DNA of 64,000 bases from Streptomyces sp. Tu6071. Lineage in GTDB: Bacteria; Actinomycetota; Actinomycetes; Streptomycetales; Streptomycetaceae. Below the pieces are notes generated by a model. It worked only from the letters and a program-made list of their open reading frames with translations. It did not search any database and was not told where the DNA came from. Made by a program: the position numbers and the translations under genes. Positions 18,062 to 36,433 of this stretch are shown piece by piece. Numbering within the stretch: position 1 is the first letter of the stretch; each line of letters begins with the position of its first letter. Location of the stretch: NCBI RefSeq assembly GCF_000213055.1, contig NZ_CM001165.1, positions 3,025,945-3,089,944 on the forward strand, written 5' to 3'.

Positions 18062-19663
18062 TCAGAAGAGCTTGACGTCCGCGAGGCGGAGGATCAGCTG
18101 CGGGGCCGCCGAGAGGGCGACGGCGAGGAGGCCGCAGAGGCCCAGGGCGGTCACGAGGGCGAGGGGGCGGCGGGTGGGCGCCTCTGCGGACGCCTTCTCG
18201 CGTACGGCCGTGGCGGTCCCGGCTGTGACGGTCCCGGCCGTGTCGGTCCCGCCTCCGGCTGCCGGTAGGTCCCGCGTGTCCGGTGCGGCGTTCCGAGCCG
18301 CGTCCGTGGCCGGTTCCGGTGTCGTACGGAAGAGGGACGCCGTCCAGCGGAGGTAGTAGACGAGAGCGATCGCGACGTTGACGGCCGTGACGACCGCGAG
18401 CCAGCCGAGGCCCGCGTCGATCGCGGCCTCGAAGACGGCGAGCTTCGCGAAGAGGCCCGCGAGGCCCGGCGGGAGTCCGGCGAGGCACAGGAGGAAGAAG
18501 GCGAGGAGGAGGGCGAGCGCGGGGTTGCGCGCGTACAGGCCCCGGAAGTCGGCGAGGCGTCCGCGCGCGAGGAGGGCCACGGCGGCGAACGAGCCGAGGT
18601 TGACCGCCGCGTACATGAGCGCGTAGGCGAGCGTCGCGCCGAGCGCGTGCGCCGGGCGGTCCGTGTACGCGGCCGAGGCGAGCGGGACGAGCAGGTAGCC
18701 GGCCTGGCCGATCGAGGACCACGCGAGGAGGCGCACGGCGCTGAAGGAGCGCGTGGGGTCCTGGCGGAGCGCCGCGGCGTTGCCGATCGTCATCGTGAGC
18801 GCCGCGAGGACCGCGAGGGCGGGGCCCCAGACGTTCCCGTACGAGGGGAAGGCGCGCACGGTGACGAGCGCGAGGCCCGAGAAGCCGACCGCCTTGCCGA
18901 CCACGGAGAGGTACGCGGCGACCGGGAGCGGGGCGCCCGTGTAGGTGTCGGGGACCCAGAAGTGGAAGGGGACGGCCGCGGTCTTGAAGGCGAAGCCGAC
19001 GAGGGTGAGGACGACGCCGACGCGGGCGAGGGTGCGGAGCTGGGGGTCGACGTCGCCGAGGGCCGCCGCGATCGCGTCGAGGTGGACGCTGCCCGTGCTC
19101 GCGTAGACGAAGGCCGTGCCGAGAAGGGTCACGGCGGTCGCGGTGACGGAGGAGAGGAAGAACTTGAGGGCCGCTTCGGCGGAGCGGCGCTCGCCGTGGC
19201 GCAGGCCGACGAGCGCGAAGGACGGGAGCGTCGCGACCTCCAGGGCGACGATGAGCGTCGCGAGGTCGCGCGCGGCGGGGAGCAGCGCCGCCCCGGCGGC
19301 GGAGGAGAGCAGCAGGAACCAGTACTCGCCCGCCGGGAGGCGCTGCGCGCGCACGGCGCCGAAGGAGAGGAGCGCGGTGAGGAGCGCGCCGCCGAGGACG
19401 AGGAGCTGCACGGTGAGCGCGAAGTGGTCCGCGCGGTAACCGCACCCGGCCTTCTCGACGCAGAAGGTCGCGCGGTCGCCGTCGAGGAGCGGGAGGAGGC
19501 TCAGGAGGGCGAGCGCGAGGCCCGCGACGGCACCGGCCCCGAGGAGGGGTTTGCGCGCCTCGGGGAGGAAGAGGTCGGCGACGAGGAGGACGAGCGCGAC
19601 GACGGCGGTGAGCGCGGGCGGGGCGATGGCGAGCCAGTCGACGGACTGCACGAGGGTGGTCAT
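18062..19663 (-). CDS. nuoN: NADH-quinone oxidoreductase subunit N (cluster lacking nuoDEFG)
   Basis: 533 residues, about 14 membrane helices, an antiporter-like proton-pumping subunit. Seen: ATLIVALEVATLPSFALVG (conserved Glu in TM5), FAFKTAAVPFHFWVPDTYTG (pumping Lys region), LLAWSSIGQAGYLLVPL and FLLCLAGLPPGLAGLFAKLA. A low-complexity Ala/Thr segment of about 50 residues interrupts the region before the last helix. The ATG overlaps the nuoM stop by 4 bp. It is the last gene of the operon. Confidence 0.94.
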   Translation of the reverse strand: MTTLVQSVDWLAIAPPALTAVVALVLLVADLFLPEARKPLLGAGAVAGLALALLSLLPLLDGDRATFCVEKAGCGYRADHFALTVQLLVLGGALLTALLSFGAVRAQRLPAGEYWFLLLSSAAGAALLPAARDLATLIVALEVATLPSFALVGLRHGERRSAEAALKFFLSSVTATAVTLLGTAFVYASTGSVHLDAIAAALGDVDPQLRTLARVGVVLTLVGFAFKTAAVPFHFWVPDTYTGAPLPVAAYLSVVGKAVGFSGLALVTVRAFPSYGNVWGPALAVLAALTMTIGNAAALRQDPTRSFSAVRLLAWSSIGQAGYLLVPLASAAYTDRPAHALGATLAYALMYAAVNLGSFAAVALLARGRLADFRGLYARNPALALLLAFFLLCLAGLPPGLAGLFAKLAVFEAAIDAGLGWLAVVTAVNVAIALVYYLRWTASLFRTTPEPATDAARNAAPDTRDLPAAGGGTDTAGTVTAGTATAVREKASAEAPTRRPLALVTALGLCGLLAVALSAAPQLILRLADVKLF

Positions 19664-35373: not shown

Positions 35374-36433
35374 GACCACGCAGGCGCCCGCGGGTCCGCT
35401 CTCGCTCTCGCTCGTGCCCAAGGCCGAGGCGAAGCAGTCCATGAAGGACTTCAAGTCGGACCAGGAGGTCCGCTGGTGCCCCGGCTGCGGGGACTACGCG
35501 GTGCTCGCGGCCGTGCAGGGCTTCATGCCCTCGCTCGGGCTCGCGAAGGAGAACATCGTGTTCGTGTCGGGCATCGGCTGCTCCAGCCGCTTCCCGTACT
35601 ACATGAACACCTACGGGATGCACTCGATCCACGGCCGCGCCCCGGCCATCGCGACCGGGCTCGCCTCCTCGCGGCAGGACCTGAGCGTGTGGGTCGTCAC
35701 GGGGGACGGCGACGCCCTCTCGATCGGCGGCAACCACCTCATCCACGCGCTGCGCCGCAACGTGAACCTGAAGATCCTGCTCTTCAACAACCGGATCTAC
35801 GGGCTCACCAAGGGCCAGTACTCGCCGACCTCCGAGATCGGCAAGATCACCAAGTCCACGCCGATGGGCTCGCTCGACAACCCCTTCAACCCCGTCTCGC
35901 TCGCCCTCGGCGCCGAGGCGACGTTCGTGGCGCGCACGGTCGACTCCGACCGCCAGCACCTGACGAGCGTCCTGAAGGCGGCGGCGGAGCACCCGGGCAC
36001 GGCGCTCGTGGAGATCTACCAGAACTGCAACATCTTCAACGACGGCGCCTTCGAGGTCCTGAAGGACAAGGACACGGCGGCGGAGGCCGTGATCCGGCTG
36101 GAGCACGGGCAGCCGATCCGCTTCGGCACGAAGGGCGTCGTACGGGACCACGCGTCCGGCGACCTGCGGGTGGTCGACGTGACGCCGGAGAACGAGGCGG
36201 ACGTCCTGGTCCACGACGCCCACCGCGAGACGGCCACGGCGGCGTACGCGCTGTCGCGCCTGGCCGACCCGACGACCCTGCACCAGACCCCGATCGGGAT
36301 CTTCCGGGACGTCGAACGCCCCGTCTACGACACGCTGATGGCGGAGCAGCTCGACGCGGCCGTCTCGGAGCACGGCAAGGGCGACCTGTCCGCGCTCCTG
36401 GCGGGCAAGGACACCTGGACCGTGGTGGGCTGA
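35366..36433 (+). CDS. korB: 2-oxoacid:ferredoxin oxidoreductase, beta subunit
   Basis: 355 residues, the thiamine-diphosphate subunit. Seen: QEVRWCPGCGDYAVLAAVQG (Cys pair of the 4Fe-4S site), SGIGCSSRFPYYMNTYGMHS, the ThDP motif VVTGDGDALSIGGNHLIHAL and NVNLKILLFNNRIYGLTKGQ. Electrons leave through its Fe-S cluster to ferredoxin. Proximity to a nuo operon without an NADH module makes ferredoxin-driven respiration a reasonable hypothesis. Confidence 0.96.
   Translation: MTETTQAPAGPLSLSLVPKAEAKQSMKDFKSDQEVRWCPGCGDYAVLAAVQGFMPSLGLAKENIVFVSGIGCSSRFPYYMNTYGMHSIHGRAPAIATGLASSRQDLSVWVVTGDGDALSIGGNHLIHALRRNVNLKILLFNNRIYGLTKGQYSPTSEIGKITKSTPMGSLDNPFNPVSLALGAEATFVARTVDSDRQHLTSVLKAAAEHPGTALVEIYQNCNIFNDGAFEVLKDKDTAAEAVIRLEHGQPIRFGTKGVVRDHASGDLRVVDVTPENEADVLVHDAHRETATAAYALSRLADPTTLHQTPIGIFRDVERPVYDTLMAEQLDAAVSEHGKGDLSALLAGKDTWTVVG

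Follow-up and report, generated by a model that had tools for sequence, protein, structure and literature searches.

A second complex I gene set in Streptomyces sp. Tu6071 lacks the NADH module and probably takes its NuoD subunit from a distant gene

Results

The nuo2 operon and its iron-sulfur and pump residues

We analyse the second set of complex I genes (nuo2) of Streptomyces sp. Tu6071, which lies in a 64,000-nucleotide stretch of its 7.5-Mb genome (G000:C1:3025945-3089944, hereafter the window). All eleven subunits A, B, C, D and H to N of a complex I are accounted for, ten by genes in the window and the eleventh, NuoD2, by a gene elsewhere in the genome. In the best explanation, which we hold to be very probable, nuo2 specifies an 11-subunit complex I of its own that has no NADH module and whose D subunit is encoded in trans by nuoD2. 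Pfam matches and reading frames confirm the gene content and coordinates of nuo2, on the minus strand at 18062-28794:

28318..28794, minus strand: nuoA2 (PF00507, 1.6e-31)
27713..28327, minus strand: nuoB2 (PF01058, 5.8e-29)
26334..27716, minus strand: nuoC2, 30-kDa domain with a low-complexity tail (PF00329, 3e-30)
25369..26337, minus strand: nuoH2 (PF00146, 6.5e-99)
24790..25368, minus strand: nuoI2 (Fer4 domains)
24014..24793, minus strand: nuoJ2, start codon not fixed (PF00499, 1.1e-35)
23616..24014, minus strand: nuoK2 (PF00420, 8.5e-26)
21553..23619, minus strand: nuoL2 (PF00361, PF00662)
19660..21549, minus strand: nuoM2, start codon not fixed (PF00361, 1.5e-59)
18062..19663, minus strand: nuoN2 (PF00361, 3.8e-47)

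A sequence-only reading of this window had described an operon with A, B, C and H to N and with no D, E, F or G, lacking the NADH module and carrying intact iron-sulfur (Fe-S) motifs in NuoI and NuoB, and on each of these points our analysis agrees. No nuoG was seen within the nuo2 operon, a genome-wide NuoG search not having been made. A single nuoE-type match and a single nuoF-type match occur in the genome, next to nuoD1 in the first complex I cluster (nuo1), and we therefore reject the idea that an NADH module is supplied to nuo2 in trans. The ligands of cluster N2 in NuoB2 are C60, C61, C126 and C156, and at each of these columns at least 93% of 82 nuo2 rows agree. NuoI2 has the eight cysteines for two 4Fe-4S clusters (C51, C54, C57, C61, C100, C103, C106 and C110), and at least 93% of 69 nuo2 rows conserve each ligand position. 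In H, K, L, M and N there are charged columns common to nuo2 (at least 93% of rows) and nuo1 (at least 85%), and these we take to be the known pump residues of complex I.

An orphan nuoD2 co-occurs with nuo2

The sequence-only reading had nuo2 borrow its NuoD from nuo1, and searching the genome for a second nuoD, a check that it named, gives a different answer. Of the two nuoD genes in the genome, nuoD1 belongs to the nuo1 cluster (C1:3103017). The other, nuoD2, is an orphan at C1:3316959-3318116, about 262 kb from nuoA2, and is presumably the gene called SCO3392 in S. coelicolor. With a cognate nuoD2 in the genome that co-occurs with nuo2, the borrowing proposal is not upheld. We also considered NuoD2 as the large subunit of a membrane-bound [NiFe] hydrogenase and rejected this, since by eye its translation shows no CxxC nickel ligands; it scores 20.1 bits against PF00374, below the cut-off of 25.8.

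Co-occurrence was counted in a sample of 298 genomes. nuoB2 is found in 97 of them at 6.2e-69 or better, with a clear gap to the next score (1.9e-57); it is also found in 49 of 59 relatives. nuoD2 (D2) is present in 96 of the 298, every one among the 97 with nuoB2. The D2 cut-off of 5.3e-100 (G079) was chosen after the nuoB2 list was known, and there is no clean score gap at this border, the next genome, G238, standing at 3.8e-99. We checked the border by the Trp/Tyr column described below: the weakest two members, G066 and G079, have Trp and a methyltransferase gene beside D2, and the genomes just below the cut-off (G085, G116, G238, G258, G270, G290 and G302, of one family, and G310) have Tyr.

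Orphan nuoD2 copies with 62-89% identity occur in 18 of 20 stretches, and the remaining two carry nuoD1-type genes. Of twenty further stretches, 18 come from genomes sharing the phylum only and two from the same class. In 16 of the 18 same-phylum stretches a D2 ortholog (46-60% identity) follows nuoC2 and precedes nuoH2, in the order A B C D H I J K L M N (the downstream end of L096 is cut off), and a second nuo set begins inside the stretch in 11 of these 16. D2 is an orphan in L092 and L095 (same phylum) and in L105 and L106 (same class). Among 80 named loci, which are the best 80 of 595, 35 have D2 in the operon (Acidimicrobiia, Ilumatobacter, Nitriliruptoraceae, Actinomarina and unnamed metagenome-assembled genomes, MAGs) and 45 have an orphan D2 (Streptomyces, Streptosporangium, Actinomadura, Actinoplanes, Micromonospora, Kribbella and others). 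Three named records with D2 in the operon (L234 and L240 among them) are entitled Actinomycetes bacterium or the like, or bear MAG names that are uncertain, so that the class border is not sharp by titles.

A tryptophan at the quinone site

The quinone site separates the two NuoD types. Residue equivalence was taken from alignments with solved NuoD chains, the five printed of which have Tyr at the head-group site. This site is Trp in 61/61 D2 and Tyr in 33/33 D1. Over all rows gathered, the residue is Trp in 139 distinct D2 cores and Tyr in 53 distinct actinobacterial NuoD of other types, with no third residue; G066 and G079 add two Trp (141 distinct D2) and four f39 genomes add four Tyr (57 other NuoD). 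Trp, which is in none of the scan patterns, is found in 80/80 named loci (again the best 80 of 595) and in 241/241 proteins, own copy included, from a set that combines the top 120 of one search with the top 120 of another. A tree of 87 NuoD places the 58 Trp rows on one side of a single branch (100/97).

Other parts of the site are kept or altered alongside. The histidine of the beta1-beta2 loop is kept, as HPSTHG, HPATHG or HPSAHG, in 61/61 D2. In NuoH2, the loop between transmembrane helices 5 and 6 (TMH5-6) has PVAD in place of PEAE: its first site is Glu in 17/17 H1, presumably the equivalent of Thermus Glu223, and Val, Ile or Met in 71/71 matched H2, with one H2 unmatched.

We rejected the broader idea that this Trp is exclusive to the D2 clade across all life, since Trp stands at or near the site in two of five NuoD from haloarchaeal plasmids, a position read from an alignment with a one-residue gap. 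Eight plasmid NuoD comprise Trp in a Nonomuraea D2 (Actinomycetota) and in one haloarchaeon, and Tyr in six. On haloarchaeal plasmids (L276, L277, L279), a long nuoD lies apart from other nuo genes or has only nuoB and nuoI nearby.

A methyltransferase gene beside nuoD2

A gene for an NDUFAF7/MidA-type methyltransferase lies near nuoD2 in 44 of the 45 named orphan loci (within the best 80 of 595 overall) and beside D2 in 28 of 30 genomes where D2 has left the operon. The protein carries PF02636, and a structure search matched the family fold for a Streptomyces sparsogenes relative. NDUFAF7 dimethylates an arginine of the NuoD family, Arg85 in human NDUFS2. That position is Arg in 61/61 D2 and Thr in 33/33 D1, and Arg in 139/139 distinct D2; one scan pattern for the named loci included the Arg, so the Arg count in those loci is biased. 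The Arg as a mark of D2 only was rejected: among 20 rows of actinobacterial NuoD outside D2, 19 have it and one has Thr, the 53 distinct Tyr-type NuoD divide into 19 Arg and 34 Thr, and the Arg is also seen where PF02636 has no match. PF02636 occurs without D2 in 12 genomes, with Arg in all five of these examined. The gene linkage suggests a pairing of NDUFAF7 with NuoD arginine methylation in Actinomycetota. Compared with known NDUFAF7/MidA protein arginine methyltransferases, the enzyme here is actinobacterial, its gene is physically linked to nuoD2, and its activity is predicted.

Other genes occur at this location. In L006 (5245-7601) the methyltransferase gene and nuoD2 are flanked by matches to a regulator and a second kinase, and similar regulators are found near D2 in several relatives; in Microtetraspora fusca the methyltransferase gene and nuoD2 are separated by a cytochrome P450 gene (L192:7094-8401).

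Regulatory genes and korAB divergent from nuo2

Two kinases and one regulator followed by korAB, as the sequence-only reading had it, run divergently from nuo2 on the plus strand at 28897-36433:

28897..30249, plus strand: sensor histidine kinase, AbrC1/C2-type by position, start codon not fixed (PF13796, PF07730 HisKA_3)
30283..32160, plus strand: sensor histidine kinase, AbrC1/C2-type by position, start codon not fixed (PF13796 1.6e-39, PF07730)
32199..32906, plus strand: LuxR-type response regulator, AbrC3-type by position (PF00196, PF00072)
33097..35373, plus strand: korA, 2-oxoacid:ferredoxin oxidoreductase alpha subunit, start codon not fixed (PF01855, PF01558, PF17147)
35366..36433, plus strand: korB, beta subunit (PF02775, 2.9e-30)

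The two kinases and the regulator have the same arrangement as the AbrC1/C2/C3 system (SCO4596-4598) of PMC9739823, whose available text places AbrC divergent from SCO4599-4608. As a fixed part of the unit, the two-kinase system fails in G196 (L151, same genus), where korAB is directly beside nuoA2 and no kinase or regulator match is found in the 19.9-kb stretch.

KorB scores 245.2 bits against the NCBIfam model PorB_KorB TIGR02177, below the cut-off of 261.9. The linkage of korAB to nuo2 is found mainly in Streptomyces: in 15 of 17 same-genus genomes the starts of korB and nuoB2 are at most 10.1 kb apart, in the other two the genes are on separate contigs, and korA adjoins nuoA2 in G312. By genome counts, 80 have both korB (E at most 1e-60) and nuo2, 17 nuo2 only, 35 korB only and 166 neither. 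The co-occurrence that the sequence-only reading led one to look for is thus above expectation, with relatedness uncorrected, and many genomes have only one of the two.

Discussion

For the assembly of a nuo2 complex, its donor, acceptor, direction and methylation, we infer the following scheme from sequence. The Actinomycetes genera named above probably descend from an ancestor in which nuoD2 left the operon. Electrons would enter at NuoI2 from a reduced one-electron carrier, which in Streptomyces is most likely ferredoxin that KorAB has charged, and the two 4Fe-4S clusters of NuoI2 would pass them to N2 in NuoB2. From there they would reach menaquinone at a site formed by NuoB2, NuoD2 and NuoH2, with Trp in place of the head-group tyrosine, and the redox energy would drive proton pumping by NuoH2 and NuoK2 to NuoN2. 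The methyltransferase would probably dimethylate the NuoD2 arginine near N2 during assembly. Ferredoxin has a potential of about -0.4 to -0.5 V and menaquinone of about -0.07 V. More energy is available between ferredoxin and menaquinone than between NADH and menaquinone, and a pump that has no NADH module could therefore merit keeping beside nuo1. Cyanobacterial and plastid NDH-1 is likewise without an NADH module and is ferredoxin-driven, as we propose for nuo2; nuo2 differs from it by its Trp-type D2.

The ferredoxin-driven unit of the sequence-only reading is reasonable from the missing NADH module, the Fe-S ligands and the adjacency of korAB, with ferredoxin from KorAB as a plausible candidate donor. 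The same parts would serve in the reverse direction, with proton-motive force and menaquinol reducing ferredoxin, for example to supply low-potential electrons for cytochromes P450. That Streptomyces are aerobic and that korB is missing in 17 of the 97 nuo2 genomes both speak for reversal. However, the Streptomyces neighbour is KorAB, from a family that normally produces reduced ferredoxin, and we consider the reverse direction unlikely.

In a second alternative, NuoD1 would join the nuo2 membrane and quinone-module (Q-module) subunits, or these subunits would be exchanged into the nuo1 complex of 14 subunits. The nuo1 cluster is close by, and such a hybrid is proposed in PMC9239103 and a swapping of NuoL2/M2 in PMC3765725, in the available text of both without biochemical proof. 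Against this stand the co-occurrence of D2 with B2 in 96 of 298 genomes, the position of D2 inside the operon in other lineages with a second nuo set nearby in 11 of 16 stretches, and the differences between D2 and D1 at two positions, those of the quinone Tyr and of the Arg close to N2. The hybrid option, which the sequence-only reading had also raised, is weakened by this co-occurrence and synteny, and we hold it to be quite improbable.

We give similarly little credence to a Trp-type site that does not reduce quinone, in which case nuo2 would pump ions with a different acceptor or be an inactive relic. The available text of PMC8119997 calls the tyrosine strictly conserved and makes it a quinone ligand and proton donor in models; it is replaced in all D2 examined, and the NuoH TMH5-6 loop Glu is also gone (0/71 matched H2 rows). 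The site histidine, the N2 ligands, the charged pump residues and the high conservation of B2 and D2 across lineages nevertheless argue for retained catalysis, and relic status suits only cases like G112.

Several observations weigh against a separate complex I with NuoD2 as its partner. The co-occurrence counts are not corrected for relatedness. The 97th genome, G246, has nuoB2 without D2 (its contig ends about 1.1 kb past nuoB2, after nuoC2), and G026, a 1300-contig assembly, likewise has nuoB2 without D2. G058, G060 and G048 have D2 without nuoB2 or nuoH2. In G112 (L265) nuo2 looks decayed, with nuoH2 in pieces without internal parts and nuoJ-N not found in the stretches examined, and D2 looks intact. 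The window genome's own methyltransferase matches no NCBIfam model, 25 of the 96 D2 genomes have no PF02636 match (the Arg is kept in those seen), the 17 nuo2 genomes without korB count here too, and without the tyrosine quinone reduction could be weak or absent. G015 and G053 have D2 and nuoH2, with nuoB2 not found. At 83 near-invariant D2 columns, G058 has 8 deviations, G060 has 4 and other D2 rows have at most 3, leaving out three non-D2 rows that the test also caught (L166, L174 and L176; 8-10 deviations); the values for G058 and G060 fit the expectation that constraint is relaxed without nuo2.

For a separate nuo2 complex we can go one step further, at what we judge to be even odds: an ancient clade of working, proton-pumping complex I would reduce (mena)quinone with Trp at the head-group site. 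The tyrosine would then be dispensable in nature, its loss compensated by an arginine-methylated NuoD2 and the altered NuoH loop, and the methyltransferase gene would have stayed beside the departed D2. This offers a natural experiment on the mechanism of complex I, where models cited in PMC8119997, in the part available, have the tyrosine bind quinone and donate a proton. Tryptophan donates protons poorly. It also offers a testable partner list for what the 2022 paper PMC9239103 calls, in the text seen, the unclear function and missing subunits of nuo2. Since Streptomyces is genetically tractable, these claims can be tested by gene removal.

The genes themselves are known. The Streptomyces nuo2 (SCO4599-4608) and nuoD2 of PMC3765725 and PMC8388888 are the same genes, with nuoA2, B2 and H2-N2 in one operon and nuoD2 apart from it, and the separation is hence already published; PMC3765725 considers nuo2 probably one operon and reports a conserved antisense RNA. 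In their available text these accounts differ from ours in that nuoC2 is unlisted, D2 is given no evidence as a partner, and neither the Trp nor the methyltransferase appears. According to the available part of PMC9239103, nuo2 is upregulated in a gbn mutant and held to lack NuoCDEFG and L. Literature searches, mostly at the surface level of the papers, found no link between nuoD2 and a methyltransferase and no mention of the Trp. The Desulfitobacterium hafniense complex, as described in the available text of PMC11238625, likewise has eleven subunits and no NuoEFG, with ferredoxin proposed as donor and the direct donor unresolved there. In contrast to it, Streptomyces and kin have D in trans with a methyltransferase gene beside nuoD2, and the Streptomyces nuo2 coexists with a 14-subunit complex and may further differ by the Trp that NuoD2 has at the quinone Tyr.

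Two smaller features concern the operon itself. A low-complexity tail of 303 residues follows the NuoC2 domain (window 26334-27245), and this tail may be why nuoC2 is unlisted in the available text of PMC3765725, PMC8388888 and PMC9239103. It is typically much longer in the own genus than elsewhere: 136-810 residues (median 310) in 16 rows of at least 70% NuoC2 identity, and 1-398 residues (median 22) in 93 other rows, where rows may repeat a gene and the group of 93 takes in some nuo1 NuoC. Several kb of other genes lie between nuoA2 and nuoB2 or between nuoB2 and nuoC2 in G217, G328 and G312 (L139, L141, L142).
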